Below the pieces are notes generated by a model. It was given only the letters and a program-made list of their open reading frames with translations. It was not told the DNA's origin and searched no databases. Below are positions 3,570-61,545 of a stretch of DNA of 64,000 nucleotides, in pieces. Both the position numbers and the translations under genes were made by a program. The first letter of the stretch is position 1. Each line of letters starts with the position of its first letter. This DNA comes from Brachyspira sp. SAP_772. Its GTDB lineage: Bacteria; Spirochaetota; Brachyspiria; Brachyspirales; Brachyspiraceae. The stretch covers positions 289,957-353,956 of the forward strand of contig NZ_VYIX01000002.1 in NCBI RefSeq assembly GCF_009755885.1, in the 5' to 3' direction.

Positions 3570-3960
3570 ATAATACTTGCACTTTTCGCGAAGCGTACCC
3601 GTAAGGTAAAAACTTTTTGCGGCGGGAAAAAGTTGATAAAAAATAATTGTTTCAATGTATTCTAAGAATTTTTAATTTTTTTTATTATTATTTTCAGGGC
3701 TTTGCCCCCTGTGAAGCGTGCCCGTATGGTAACACCCCACTTCTTTTGTTGACACAAAGAAGCAAAAAGACTGCATTTTTATGATAAATTTGATAATTTA
3801 ATTGTGTATTAAAAAGCACCCCACCGCACGCCTGAAAAGCTATAATTAAAACATAGCGTTGTCGTGCGGCAAGCCCTCGACCGTAGGGAGTGCACAGCTA
3901 GGCGAGTAATGGTACAGCTCGTACACAAAAAAGTTGATAATAAAGTTATAAAAACACAAA
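3570..3960. repeat. Mosaic intergenic repeat block (reverse orientation)
   Basis: The gene-free stretch before tRNA-Leu is filled with modules that recur elsewhere in the window. At 3576-3650 is the 'TTTTTGCGGCGGGAAAAAG' module interrupted by the short cassette GCGAAGCGTACCCGTAAGG. At 3695-3780 is the 'AAGAAGCAAAAAGACTGCAT' module in reverse, with the same cassette type at 3709-3732. At 3824-3869 is a 46-base unit bounded by CCGCACG and CGTGCGG. At about 3900-3930 are pieces of the GTACGAGCTGTACCA cassette, in reverse. No gene is seen. Confidence 0.85.
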
Positions 3961-5824: not shown

Positions 5825-6060
5825 AAATTTAGTTTTTATGTTTTGTTAATCTCGGGGGCTAGCCCCCATACACCCACTTCTTTTACGACCGTAGGAAGTG
5901 CCTTCGGTATTGATATAAAAGAAGCAAGAGAACTGTATATGTATCGAAAATATAGCATTACCTTTTTAATATATATTCTAACATATAGAGCTAAAATATT
6001 TGCACTTTTTGGTTCTTTTTGCTGCGGGAAAAAGAACAATAAAAAATAGCAAAATATAGC
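5825..6060. repeat. Intergenic repeat block (reverse orientation)
   Basis: It lies between convergent genes. It contains the GGGGGCTAGCCCCC palindrome with 'CCCACTTCTTTT', a cassette CGACCGTAGGAAGTGCC at about 5886-5902, then the module ending 'TGCTGCGGGAAAAAGAAC' at 6020-6040. Open frames on both strands here are by-products of the repeat and are not reported as genes. Confidence 0.8.
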
Positions 6061-8984: not shown

Positions 8985-9420
8985 ATCCCCGCCCTCTAGG
9001 CTCATATGTTTTATTTATAATATCTAATTTTATTAATCTCATTGTATACTAAAAAAAGCACACCCACCCAAGTGTTTTTTTAATTTAAAAATATATTTAA
9101 CCGCACGGTAAACAAAATTAAAAATATAATAAAATTAACAATACAATTTTTTTAATATACAAGTGATTGTCAACCGTGTGGTTAAGTAGTTAAAATTATA
9201 TATATTAAAATTTTTTTATAAAGCCCACCCTCTAGATTTATATGCTTTATTTGTAATATTTAGTTTTATTAATCTTTTTGCTTATTTAAAAAAGCATACC
9301 CGCCCAAGTTGTTTTTAAATTTATAATTAGCACACCGCACGGTAAGCAAAATTAAAAATATAATAAAATTAGCAATATAATTTTTATAATATACGAGTGA
9401 TTGTTCAGCGTGCGTTAATA
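8985..9420. repeat. Two tandem copies of the ~200-base 'CCGCCC' repeat
   Basis: Copy one is about 8985-9183 and copy two about 9222-9416. Each starts with CCGCCCTCTAG or CCACCCTCTAG, continues through a similar AT-rich stretch to an 'ACCCGCCCAAGT'-like box, and ends with a roughly 83-base unit whose ends are inverted (ACCGCACGG near 9100 and 9334; CCGTGTGGT near 9182; GCGTGCGTT near 9415). The two copies are similar but diverged. Related copies lie near 51.8, 55.1 and 56.5 kb. This fills the 600-base gap between the two symporter genes. Confidence 0.82.
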
Positions 9421-9456
9421 TAGACTGAAATATATATTATAAATAGATTATATAAA

Positions 9457-15444: not shown

Positions 15445-15785
15445 ATTTTTTATCTTGTTCTTTTTCCCGCAGCAAAAAGAACCAAAAAGTGCGAGTGTTT
15501 TAGCTTTATATGTTTGGAATATATAAATATAAAATAATAGCTATGTTTTTGTATACATAAAAAGCTATACTTTATTAAATGCAGTTCTTTTGGTTCTTTT
15601 ATACCAATAAAAGAACTGGGGTGCGGGGCAAAGCCCTGCAAATAACCAAAATGAAAAAAGTAAAAATTTCTAGAATGTGTCAATTATCTTCTATCAACTT
15701 TTTCCTGCCGCAAAAAGTTTTCGCCCTTCGGGCACGCTTCGCGAAAGTGCAAATGTTTTAGCTTTATACGTTTGGAATATCTATA
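15445..15785. repeat. Mosaic intergenic repeat block
   Basis: At 15455-15500 is the 'TTTTTCCCGCAGCAAAAAG' module. At 15580-15650 is a TGCAGTTCTTTTGGTTC module without the internal cassette (TATACCAATAAAAGAAC reads straight through) ending in GGGGCAAAGCCC. At 15695-15760 is a second CCGCAAAAAG module, this time carrying the GGGCACGCTTCGC cassette. No gene is seen. Confidence 0.85.
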
Positions 15786-19929: not shown

Positions 19930-20545
19930 TTTGTTATATATTTTTTATTCAACTTTTTCCCGCGTACGAGCTGTACCACCTTGCCGCATTACTCGTCGTA
20001 AGGGCTTTCCGCACGGTAATGCTATGCTTTAATTATAACTTCTTAGTCGTGCGGGGGAGTGCCTTTTAATATACAATTAAATTATAAAATTTATATTGTT
20101 CTTTTTCCCGCAGCTACGAGGTGAGGACTCCGTCAAAGAACCAAAAAGTGCAAGTGTTATAGCTTTGTCATTTGGAATATGTATTAGTATAAAATAATAG
20201 ATGTATCTTTGTGTAAAAAATGCAGTTCTTTTGGTTCTTTTATACCAATGCCCACAGGCACTTCCTTCGGTCGTACCGAGTAGGTGCCTATCGGCAAGAG
20301 AACTTGGGGTGCGGGGGCTAGCCCCAGAGAATAAAAAACATAAAAATATTTTTTGACAGACTTAAACATTTTTACTATATAGTAAAACAATTATTTTCTA
20401 TCAACTTTTTCCCGTAGCAAAAAGTACAAATGTTATAGCTTTGTATGTTTGTAGTATTTATATAGTATAATCTTAACAAGTGAACTTCCTTCAGTCGCAA
20501 AACAAGTGGGTGTACGGGGTAGTCACCGAGAACAACAAAAAACAT
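19930..20545. repeat. Large mosaic intergenic repeat block
   Basis: The gap is fully occupied by modules: CCCGC joined to GTACGAGCTGTACCACC (19961-19980), a 46-base CCGCACG..CGTGCGG unit at 20009-20054, a CCCGCAGC module at 20105-20120 interrupted by GAGGTGAGGACTCCGTC, and a TGCAGTTCTTTTGGTTC module at 20221-20330. The last carries two consecutive cassettes, about 20250-20274 and GTAGGTGCCTATCGGC (unit 20275-20295). A further CCCGTAGC copy lies at 20411. No gene is supported here. Confidence 0.85.
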
Positions 20546-29044: not shown

Positions 29045-29440
29045 TATAATCAAATGCTATAGTTTTACATGTTTGTAATATGTATAAGCTATAAGATAAT
29101 ATCTTTATTTTAAGCATAAAAAATGCAGTTCTTTTGGTTCTTTTATATCAATACCGAGTAGGTGCCTATCGGCAAAATAACTGGGGTTCTACCCTAAGGG
29201 CACGCTTCGCAGGGGGCTAGTCCCCACAAAATAAAAAACTTAAAAAATATTTTTGGATATTAAATAATAATTTTATATCAACTTTTTCCCGCGTACGAGC
29301 TGTACCACCTTGCCGCACGGTAATGCTATGCTTTAATTATAACTTCTTAGTCGTGCGGAGGAGTGCATTTTAATGTACAATTAAATTATAAAATTTATAA
29401 TAAAAATGCAGTTCTTCGCGAAGCGTATACGAAAGGATAA
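29045..29440. repeat. Mosaic intergenic repeat block
   Basis: A TGCAGTTCTTTTGGTTC module starts near 29123 and contains two cassettes: GTAGGTGCCTATCGGC (unit 29153-29173) and GGGCACGCTTCGC (about 29190-29213). At 29281-29312 is CCCGC plus GTACGAGCTGTACCACC, leading into the 46-base unit 29313-29358. A third cassette GCGAAGCGTATACG lies near 29415. No gene is seen in the gap. Confidence 0.85.
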
Positions 29441-30259: not shown

Positions 30260-30690
30260 TAAAGTCGCCGCAAACAAAACTTAAAAAATAAATTTTGATA
30301 TACTCAAAAATTTTTAGTATATACTAGAATAATAATTTTCTATCAACTTTTCCCGTGTACGAGCTGTACCACCTTGACGCACGGTAGTGCTATACTTTAA
30401 TTATAACTTCTTAGTCGTGCGGGTGAGTGCATTTTAATGTACAATTAAATTATAAAATTTATAATAAAAATGCAGTTCTTTTGGTTCTTTTATACCAATA
30501 AAAGAACTGTGGTGCGGGGCAAAGCCCTGCAAATAATAAAACAAATAAAGTTAAAAATTTTTTAGTATATTCTGAAATAATTATATCTTTTATATTATTT
30601 TTTTATTCAACTTTTTCCCGCAGCAAAAAGTTTTTACCCTACGGGTACGCTTTGCGAAAAGTGCAAATATTATAGTTTAATATTTATATA
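30260..30690. repeat. Mosaic intergenic repeat block
   Basis: CCCG plus GTACGAGCTGTACCACC at 30351-30375, then a 46-type unit at 30377-30423 with one changed base at its left end (ACGCACGG). Next is a TGCAGTTCTTTTGGTTC module at 30471-30535 without internal cassette and ending GGGGCAAAGCCC. Last is a CCCGCAGCAAAAAG module at 30616-30665 containing a cassette copy GGGTACGCTTTGC. No gene is seen. Confidence 0.85.
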
Positions 30691-34019: not shown

Positions 34020-34850
34020 AATATTATTTAATACATATTCCAAATGACAAAGTTATAGTATTTGTACTTTTTGGTTCTTTTTACGAAGTCCGCACCGCGA
34101 GCTACGGGAAAAAGAACAACAAAAAAATTATAAAAAATAATTATTTCAATATATACTAAAAATTTATTTTTTAAGTTTTTGTTTTGTGGTGGCGTTGCCC
34201 CCTACGAAGCGTGCCCGTAGGGTAGCACCCCACTTCTTTTGCCGATAGGCACCTACTTGGTGTTGGTATAAAAGAACCAAAATAATTTGCATTTTTTGCG
34301 ACTTTTTTCGGCGGGAAAAAGTTGAATAAAAAAACTTATTATATATCTGAAAACTTTTAAGTTTATCAATTTTTATTTTTATATTTCGGGGACTAGCCCC
34401 CCTGCGAAGCGTACCCGTAGGGTAGAACCCCCACTTCTTTTGTTGCCACAAAGAAGCAAAAAGGCTGCATTTTTTTAGCTTAATATGTTGGTATTATTTT
34501 ATAGTTTATACATATTCAAAAAATACAAAGCTGTAGCACTTGCACTTTTGGTTCTTTTTGTGGCGGGAAAAAGAATAATATAAATTTTATAATTTAATTG
34601 TACATTAAAAGGCATTCCTCCGCACGACTAAGAAGTTATAATTAAAGCATAGCATTACCGTGCGGAAAACTCGTATGGCGAATACTTCAAAGAAAAAAAT
34701 AATTGTGAATAAAAAAGCACTCCTCCGCACGCGTAGAAGGTTATGATTAAAACAGAGTACTGTCGTGCAGCAAGCCGCCGACCGTAGTGAGTGCACAGCT
34801 AGGCGAGTAGTGGTACAGCTCGTACGCGGGAAAAAGAACAACAAAAAACT
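34020..34850. repeat. Longest mosaic repeat block, mostly reverse orientation
   Basis: More than 800 gene-free bases composed of repeats. Two reverse 'CCCCACTTCTTTT' modules lie at about 34190-34285 and 34385-34470, carrying cassette copies at 34201-34225, 34241-34261 and 34402-34425. There are 'GCGGGAAAAAG' modules near 34310 and 34565, an intact 46-base CCGCACG..CGTGCGG unit at 34620-34665, and a shortened one at 34735-34770 ending CGTGCAG. The last part (34790-34830) is TGGTACAGCTCGTACGCGGG. Open frames here are repeat artefacts. Confidence 0.88.
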
Positions 34851-36417: not shown

Positions 36418-36546
36418 TGAATTATTGTATTTAAAATTTTGGTTATAACATAAAAATATTAAAAAATACGAACTCATTATAAAAGCTATAACAATTTTTG
36501 TATACTTGACAATAAAAAAAATTTGTGTATACTAACTAATATATAA

Positions 36547-36677
36547 ATCTTCGGGGCTAGGTGAAATTCCATACCGGCGGTAAAGTCCGCGAGCCTTTTT
36601 GATGTTTCCTGCATTCAAAAATAGCAGATTTGGTGCAATTCCAAAACCGACAGTTAAAGTCTGGATGGTAGAAGATG
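36547..36677 (+). promoter_or_regulatory. FMN riboswitch (RFN element)
   Basis: Conserved blocks in order: TCTTCGGGGCTAGGTG, AATTCCATACCGGCGGT, AAAGTCCGCGAGCC, then GCAGATTTGGTGCAATTCC, AAAACCGACAGTTAAAGTC and TGGATGGTAGAAGAT, with TCTTC and GAAGA closing the P1 stem. It binds FMN and controls the riboflavin genes downstream. A variable arm at about 36600-36625 is short. Confidence 0.95.
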
Positions 36678-36711
36678 TTTTTTAATGTAAACTACATATC
36701 AAAAAATTATG

Positions 36712-37924: not shown

Positions 37925-38000
37925 CTTGATTACTGGGGACTAGTCCCCAGACCCCTACTTCTTTTGGTGACCCAAAGAAGCAAAAGGACTGCATTTGTAT
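37925..38000. repeat. Repeat module between ribD and ribE
   Basis: Reverse copy: GGGGACTAGTCCCC palindrome at 37937-37950, then CCCCTACTTCTTTTGG, GACCCAAAGAAGCAAAAGG and ACTGCAT. It matches the module at 40398-40468 in the other orientation and lacks the GC-rich cassettes. Confidence 0.85.
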
Positions 38001-38814: not shown

Positions 38815-38935
38815 TGAAAATGCAGTTCTTTTGCTTCTTTTATACCAATACCGAGTAGGTGCCTATCGGCAAAAGAAGTGGGGTGCTACCCTACGGGCAC
38901 GCTTCGCAGGGGGCAAAGCCCTGCAAATATTAAAA
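38815..38935. repeat. Repeat module between ribE and ribBA, with two cassettes
   Basis: TGCAGTTCTTTTGCTTC module from 38820, with cassette GTAGGTGCCTATCGGC (unit 38850-38870) and cassette CTACGGGCACGCTTCGC (within about 38887-38909), ending GGGGGCAAAGCCCTGC. It fills the middle of the 280-base gap. Confidence 0.87.
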
Positions 38936-40397: not shown

Positions 40398-40468
40398 AAT
40401 TGCAGTCCTTTTGGTTCTTTGGGTCACCAAAAGAACTGGGGTTTGGGGTGAAACCCCAATAAAATATT
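40398..40468. repeat. Repeat module upstream of ribH
   Basis: Forward copy TTGCAGTCCTTTTGGTTC, GGGTCACCAAAAGAACTGGG and GGGGTGAAACCCC at 40398-40465, without cassettes. It ends about 35 bases before the ribH start. The rest of the gap from 40255 holds the duplicated AGGAGG sequence and AT-rich DNA. Confidence 0.83.
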
Positions 40469-47709: not shown

Positions 47710-47795
47710 ATTTTGGGGACTAGTCCCCAAACCCCTACTTCTTTTGCGACCGAAGGAAGTGCCTGCGGCGTGACCCAAAGAAGCAAAAGGACTAT
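47710..47795. repeat. Repeat module with an alternative cassette
   Basis: Reverse copy beginning GGGGACTAGTCCCC, then CCCCTACTTCTTTT interrupted by CGACCGAAGGAAGTGCC and followed by GTGACCCAAAGAAGC. Apart from the inserted 24 or so bases it matches the module at 37925-38000. The remaining gap to 48038 is AT-rich with a possible promoter. Confidence 0.83.
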
Positions 47796-60949: not shown

Positions 60950-61545
60950 TATTGTTCTTTTTCCCACGTACGAGCTGTACCACCTTGCCGCACGATAATG
61001 CTATGCTTCAATTATAGCTTCTTATACGTGCGGAGGAATACCTTTTAATATACAATTAAATTATAAAATTTATAATAAAATGCAGTTCTTTTGGTTCTTT
61101 TATACCAATACCGAGTAGGTGCCTATCGGCAAAAGAAGTGGGGCTCGGGGACTAGTCCCCGCAAATAAAAAACTAAAAAAATATCTTTGATAAAATTAAA
61201 GTTCTCAATATATATAATAAGTTTTTTATTCAACTTTTTTGTCGCTCTCGCTGTGAGGACTTCGTCAAAAAGTTGCAAAAAACGCAAATACTATAGCTTT
61301 ATATGTTTTGAAATATGTATAAAGTGTAAGGTAATGCAAATATTTTAGCTAAAACAATGCAGTTCTTTTGCTTCTTTTATACCAATACCGAGTAGGTGCC
61401 TATCGGCAAAAGAAGTGGGGGTGCGGGGGCTAGTCCCCGCAAATAATAAAAAACTTAAAATTTTCTTGTTCTTTTTCCCGCAGCAAAAAGAACCAAAAAG
61501 TGCAAGTGTTATAGCTTTATATCTTTGAAATATATAAAGCTAAAA
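60950..61545. repeat. Mosaic repeat block between terminase and tail-protein genes
   Basis: CCCAC plus GTACGAGCTGTACCACC at 60963-60985, a 46-base unit at 60988-61033, and a TGCAGTTCTTTTGGTTC module at 61081-61165 with cassette GTAGGTGCCTATCGGC (unit 61110-61130). A CTTTTTTGTCGCTCTCG variant lies at 61233, a second TGCAGTTC module at 61359-61445 with the same cassette (61387-61407), and a CCCGCAGCAAAAAG module at 61476-61503. It separates two phage-type genes by 645 bases. Confidence 0.88.

Follow-up and report, generated by a model that had tools for sequence, protein, structure and literature searches.

The riboflavin locus and its repeat module

The window, i.e., the whole stretch of DNA analyzed, comprises 64,000 nucleotides of Brachyspira sp. 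SAP_772 (genome G000, contig C2, positions 289957–353956). The spacer between two genes of the riboflavin operon, presumably ribE and ribAB as judged from their reading frames and from the riboflavin pathway, holds a repeat module that carries two cassettes called A and B (Table 1), and since this locus lies within the rib operon the module hairpins may be transcribed between the two genes. An FMN riboswitch is located upstream of the operon (36543–36680 of the window); together with a tmRNA and one tRNA it was the only match in an Rfam search of the window, in which no family matched the repeats. An intergenic pair of 123-nt direct repeats (80% identical, 9100–9456) is distinct from the modules studied here. 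Downstream of ribAB in relatives (loci L056–L073) there are terminator-like hairpins that have a common outer stem (AAAAACTTGT... or AAAAATTAC...) and differing inner hairpins, which look as if they had been swapped or inserted.

The host module forms a hairpin whose base pairs covary. Both loop-closing pairs are formed in all 98 empty module hairpins from stretches of four relatives, compared to at most 53 with shuffled partners, and five sets of pairs close the loop (AT-AT, GG-CC, GT-AC, GC-GC, and TG-CA). Complementarity of the arm pair (C-G or G-C) is preserved in 97 of these 98 modules (shuffles gave at most 71). The loop is mostly a tetraloop with CA at its end, and the cassettes are found immediately behind it.

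Cassette inventory and architecture

An earlier note on this DNA had placed an uninterrupted module near 15.6 and 30.5 kb, cassette A at 29.15, 38.85, 61.11, and 61.39 kb, and cassette B at 38.89 and 29.19 kb and inside a different module near 3.6, 15.7, and 30.6 kb. All of these are found at those places, the exact empty form lying at 15593–15616 and 30484–30507, and two further copies of A are added here at 20280 (+) and 34241–34256 (-). The third cassette, C, does occupy the first site at 47.75 and 5.89 kb as proposed, but on the minus-strand reading, and one more copy of it is present at 20.26 kb. Copy numbers in the window are far above chance: 6 copies of the A core GTAGGTGCCTATCGGC (0.01 expected), 8 of the B string CTACGGGCACGCTTCGC at ≤2 mismatches (0 expected), 3 of the C string CGACCGAAGGAAGTGCC (0 expected), and 10 of the module string TGCAGTTCTTTT at ≤1 mismatch (about 1 expected). 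The full cassettes are longer than the strings originally quoted; measured against the empty orthologue, the insertions in the ribE-ribAB spacer amount to 21 nt for A (ACCGAGTAGGTGCCTATCGGC) and 23 nt for B.

Table 1. Modules, empty sites, and cassettes in the window (position 1 is the first nucleotide of the window).
Feature	Position	Strand	Remark
Complete repeat module carrying cassettes A and B, ribE/ribAB spacer	38820..38925	+	orthologue comparison
Cassette A, ACCGAGTAGGTGCCTATCGGC, 21 nt, in module hairpin loop	38850..38870	+	missing from orthologous G011 module
Cassette B, TACCCTACGGGCACGCTTCGCAG, 23 nt as inserted, double mini-hairpin	38887..38909	+	missing from orthologous G011 module
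Short hairpin no. 2 of module, GGGGCAAAGCCCTGC	38910..38924	+	
Empty-site module, TTCTTTTATACCAATAAAAGAAC	15580..15616	+	
Empty-site module	30471..30507	+	
Empty-site module, GGGTCACC loop type	40401..40436	+	
Empty-site module, GGGTCACC loop type	37958..37993	-	
Empty-loop module hairpin, GTGGCAAC type	34434..34456	-	
Empty-loop module hairpin, GTGTCAAC type	3740..3762	-	
Cassette A immediately behind a cassette C; one loop filled in tandem	20275..20295	+	
Cassette A, module loop	29153..29173	+	
Cassette A, module loop, CA...CA flanks	34241..34261	-	
Cassette A, module loop	61110..61130	+	
Cassette A, module loop	61387..61407	+	
Cassette B	29190..29210	+	
Cassette B, same module as A at 34241..34261	34204..34224	-	
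Cassette B adjoining empty-loop module	34404..34424	-	
Cassette B adjoining empty module	3711..3731	-	
Cassette B, third module type (AACTTTTTCCCGCCGCAAAAAGTT)	3588..3608	-	
Cassette B, third module type	15722..15742	+	
Cassette B, third module type	30635..30655	+	
Cassette C core, AGGCACTTCCTTCGGTCG	20256..20273	+	
Cassette C core	5886..5903	-	corresponding place in G014 is an empty module
Cassette C core, module of GGGTCAC loop type	47747..47764	-	
Cassette G, CGCTGTGAGGACTTCGTC, 18 nt, third module type	61249..61266	+	missing at aligned G014 place
Cassette H, ATTACTCGTCGTAAGGGCTTTCCGC, 25 nt	19988..20012	+	missing at aligned G014 place

The cassettes had been described as GC-rich units of about 20 bases, which agrees with a length of 18–25 nt; however, most of them are double mini-hairpins and not arbitrary GC-rich strings. 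When tested against shuffles, families A, B, E, F, G, J, K, and L consist of two adjacent mini-hairpins with stems of 3–4 bp and loops of 3–6 nt (in A, ACC-GAGTA-GGT and GCC-TATC-GGC), and families C, H, and I fail the strict double-hairpin test. The folding of cassette A by itself is only moderate (z about -1.3). In A, the internal purine and last base are complementary, as G-C or A-T, in 80 of 82 copies of the family, and the same purine complements the flanking pyrimidine, CA flanking the G form and TA the A form. In all six A insertions for which an empty allele could be aligned, the cassette is bordered at either end by YA (CA or TA), which is present once in the empty allele. Duplication of a 2-bp YA by a 19-nt unit and a matched target of a 21-nt unit fit these data equally well, and the two are not separated. 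Cassette F is inserted without any repeat or duplication (CATAAA^AATGAA). Insertion into loops recurs: cassette E occupies the second-hairpin loop of A, and L apparently the first-hairpin loop of E. A deletion remnant was also found: locus L252 lacks 9 nt of the cassette present in L248.

Empty and filled module sites

The ribE-ribAB spacer carries A and B in G000 and G012, a module with both sites empty in G011, and no module in G013 and G014. A genus-wide pattern scan found the empty core TTCTTTTATACCAATAAAAGAA coexisting with forms longer by 21 nt (A or reversed A) and by 24 nt (C); the first 100 sites listed in G000 comprise 52 empty, 31 A, 2 reversed A, and 15 C, and tandem C+A fillings were observed separately. 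Further orthologous pairs are contained in a catalogue of chromosomal indels, e.g., an A insertion in G014 facing an empty G011 site with flanks 97% identical, and throughout the chromosomal stretches compared the GC-rich indels of 17–41 nt are cassettes of a few families, the remaining indels being AT-rich. The compared genomes are species or sibling strains and not members of one culture. Orthology by flank pairs includes some paralogous neighbors and was used only for the 5.89-kb site; the main evidence consists of contiguous alignments.

Within modules, the A junction in the commonest type is always TA...CA (53/53 exact-type copies), and reversed-A copies show TA...TA in 24 of 24. Arms are mismatched in 13 of 65 A-filled modules vs. 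1 of 96 empty modules (p = 3e-5), which suggests that filled halves also spread by recombination between modules, besides insertion; the mismatches could alternatively reflect relaxed selection on the outer stem. Given the constant TA...CA junction and the mosaic arms, part of the spread inside modules is probably due to copying or recombination of filled modules. Among the sites listed in G000, A-filled modules are concentrated on contig C2 (26/59, vs. 1/27 on C1; p = 1e-4) for a cause that remains unexplained, and C-filled modules are evenly spread over contigs C1, C2, and C3.

Insertions in prophage genes

The evidence that we regard as decisive, as far as comparison of sequences can decide, comes from prophage genes outside the window that have no module around them, where cassette A is found in frame within protein genes of other Brachyspira. 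The gene of a head maturation protease (PHROG 80) has 21 additional nt in three prophage copies of G010 and is empty in G016, the flanks being identical over 150 bases to the left and to the right. In G006 the same gene carries A with 19 nt nested in it, which disrupts the reading frame, and in other alleles a different cassette of 21 nt, F, is located at a distance of a few codons; overall, A is present in one genome and A with E in one, vs. 14 empty loci. The gene of a phage single-strand-binding protein (PHROG 44) has 21 additional nt in its acidic tail in G010 and is empty in G005 (flanks 99.3% identical), whereas in G006 the 21 nt are found at another site, at which eight homologues are empty (1 filled genome vs. 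7 empty loci at the former site and 1 vs. 8 at the latter). A PHROG 6216 protein is likewise longer by 21 nt in G021 than in G024 and G016, another gene site occurs in three states (empty, A, and A with nested E), and an integrase-like (tyrosine-recombinase-like) gene of a G010 prophage (L260/L264) contains an in-frame 18-nt double hairpin (GGCTAAAGCCCGCAGAGC). In total, six independent insertions of A could be aligned with an empty allele. For these phage gene targets a location in a hairpin loop is not shown.

Contig C1 of G010 harbors three near-identical prophages near 1.516, 1.954, and 2.579 Mb, each with the same two in-frame A insertions (ssb and head protease). At the start of the head protease gene, behind its first codons, locus L239 has an extra stretch (SRRSRHNSLCLEIRSGGEY) that L238 lacks; it is in frame and may be composed of several cassettes.

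The filled state is thus rare and derived in prophage genes, which sets the polarity as insertion and not deletion only. This result, together with the polymorphism of orthologous loci, supports the claim of the earlier note that filled and empty versions of one site imply insertion or excision of tiny elements. The two outcomes named there as capable of refuting it, namely cassettes that are never polymorphic and an ancestral filled form followed only by deletions, do not hold.

Indel catalogues compiled without reference to cassettes

A catalogue was made of every indel of 14–45 nt between related Brachyspira prophage-gene loci, with no search for cassettes. It contains 44 distinct indels, not all of them independent events, since a few are overlapping cuts of one insertion. 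Two adjacent hairpins are present in 30 of the 38 that are GC-rich (about 1.2 expected from shuffles) and in none of the 6 that are AT-rich. Although the sequences differ, 20 of the 38 GC-rich indels are exactly 21 nt long, and the length of 28 is divisible by three. When the comparison was widened to four prophage regions, 8 indels were found, 7 of which are double hairpins, all 7 in open frames and multiples of three. As a control, the same procedure applied to stretches of five AT-rich Lactococcus phages (about 209 kb aligned) gave 10 distinct indels and no double hairpin among them.

Search for an enzyme and for other hosts

The HUH Y1 transposase (Y1_Tnp, PF01797) was not found in any of 26 Brachyspira genomes, and control genomes did give matches, in 5 of them. 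No intact IS630-type transposase (DDE_3) was present in the 26 genomes, only one broken fragment, and a reverse transcriptase (RVT_1) was detected in 7 of the 26, G000 not being among them. These distributions rule out all three enzymes as universal movers of the cassettes. A search for the A core in IMG/VR returned no copy. In 257 Gb of genomes most matches fell on Brachyspira contigs, and the few others, located in unrelated coding sequence, look like chance. Within the collection of literature searched, no paper on such repeats in Brachyspira was found.

Origin of the cassettes

The cassettes are discrete units with fixed ends that occur as empty and filled alleles, are inserted in frame in genes, nest in one another, and fold with compensatory changes. 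We interpret them as very small non-autonomous mobile elements of about 18–25 nt, mostly double mini-hairpins, that insert whole with fixed ends, a reading to which we assign a probability of roughly 0.7; no enzyme was found and no insertion was watched. Among apparently mobile bacterial DNA units, they are some of the smallest observed. As for how the units are inserted, which is inferred here, we consider it most likely that an unidentified enzyme inserts a folded single strand, guided by its structure. The preferred targets would be loops of existing hairpins, either the module loop or the loops of other cassettes, which would generate nested elements, and prophage genes would also be targeted, 21 nt preserving the frame. 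The sites of entry of the folded strand are inferred to be exposed single-stranded loops or replication forks, and pairing between element and target may partly guide the insertion (in A, an internal G with CA and an internal A with TA). Once in a module, the filled state may also spread via recombination between module copies. A broader proposal, for which we would put the odds a little below even, is that these cassettes represent a shape-defined class of bacterial mobile DNA: double mini-hairpins of about 21 nt, many unrelated in sequence, that would enter hairpin loops and replicating phage DNA as folded single strands, depend neither on HUH Y1 nor on IS630-type enzymes, and nest recursively.

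The main rivals to structure-guided insertion are conventional transposition and template switching during replication. A 19-nt unit might be moved by an as yet unidentified DNA transposase, with duplication of a 2-bp YA target in the manner of Tc1/mariner-IS630 elements (TA), and the paired YA flanks of the six aligned A insertions as well as the uniform TA...TA of reversed A would be expected from it. We nevertheless consider it unlikely, although it has to be taken seriously: DDE_3 survives only as the broken fragment, F enters without duplication, plain duplication does not predict the covariation of internal purine and flanking pyrimidine, and 19 nt leave almost no space for transposase binding sites. 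Template switching or self-primed hairpin synthesis, in which the polymerase jumps on the 2-nt YA microhomology to another copy and back, needs neither element nor enzyme; it accounts for YA at both ends and for the matching of the G form to CA and the A form to TA, and forks do stall at hairpins. It predicts, however, varied ends and lengths, which is difficult to reconcile with unit ends that stay constant across independent insertions, with the exact 21 nt shared by indels of differing sequence in the unbiased catalogue, and with the absence of such indels from the AT-rich Lactococcus phages, and for these reasons we hold it to be rather improbable.

Two further explanations dispense with repeated insertion. 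Gene conversion or gene transfer agents could have swapped filled and empty modules after one or a few ancient insertions, so that orthologous polymorphism would represent conversion only. The identical junctions of A in modules, the excess of mismatched arms in A-filled modules, and their regional confinement speak for such exchange; yet clean 21-nt inserts in unrelated, module-free prophage genes, both orientations, and nested cassettes are left unexplained. Recombination as the sole cause, to which we give very little credence, is refuted by the gene insertions, and it remains a likely second process within modules. Precise deletion alone from an ancestral filled state is disfavored to the point of being hardly tenable: remnants such as that of L252 do exist, but for each prophage gene the filled form is rare and the empty form is spread over many species, and empty modules retain perfect covarying closing pairs.

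Comparison with known systems

By analogy, the closest known kinds would be the hairpin elements of mitochondria and, among bacteria, the small dispersed repeats (SDR) of cyanobacteria, with the Rickettsia palindromic elements (RPE) as the nearest likeness for in-frame gene insertion. The cassettes fail at least one defining test each of REP/RAYT systems, IS630 MITEs, and RPEs. They share with REP/REPIN sequences the character of short palindromic dispersed repeats, for which recognition of a single-strand hairpin would be the natural model, but the RAYT transposase (Y1 HUH) is absent from 26/26 Brachyspira genomes. As regards Tc1/mariner-IS630 MITEs, A shows a repeated YA (CA or TA) and F shows none, and the related autonomous transposase, DDE_3, is limited to one broken fragment in the 26 genomes. 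RPEs are palindromic repeats that lie in frame within protein genes (PMC10969869). The Brachyspira cassettes are also inserted in frame in protein genes; however, RPEs measure about 150 bp, whereas the cassettes measure 18–25 bp and their gene insertions are in phage genes.

SDRs are reportedly about 21–27 nt long, with empty and filled sites and insertion into other repeats. These very small repeats of Nostoc and other cyanobacteria have been reported to be mobile in a bacterium (Elhai et al., 2008, cited in PMC3116915). Double hairpins, nesting in loops, and in-frame insertion into phage genes cannot be attributed to SDRs on the basis of that citation. The mobile GC clusters of yeast differ in being mitochondrial, and they are larger, about 30–40 nt. 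These GC-rich hairpins lie in AT-rich DNA, and their movement is believed to take place at the DNA level, as with DNA transposons (PMC2800124).

The double-hairpin elements (DHE) of Allomyces mtDNA and other mitochondrial repeated hairpin elements (RHE), some of them double, are mostly intergenic but also occur within genes, differ in frequency between close relatives, and in the case of the Allomyces DHE have no reported flanking duplication (PMC2800124). The Brachyspira cassettes resemble them in having two adjacent short hairpins with compensatory variation (except C, H, and I) and in being polymorphic, empty or filled, between close relatives. They differ in residing in bacterial chromosomes and prophages, in their unit of about 21 nt, in their in-frame insertion and nesting in loops, and in the repeated YA ends of A. 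As they are not organelle DNA, it is said here that the cassettes work like DHE/RHE and not that they are DHE/RHE, and common descent is not claimed. If the interpretation is correct, a length of about 21 nt would suffice for DNA to be mobile, which is much shorter than any insertion sequence or usual MITE, and what is conserved would be the fold; the intergenic DNA of Brachyspira would be explained as a patchwork of nested hairpins, and phage proteins would have a source of seven-codon in-frame insertions. The close empty/filled pairs make mobility directly testable, and the mitochondrial hairpin elements, whose mechanism of mobility is still open, would have gained a bacterial, culturable counterpart.
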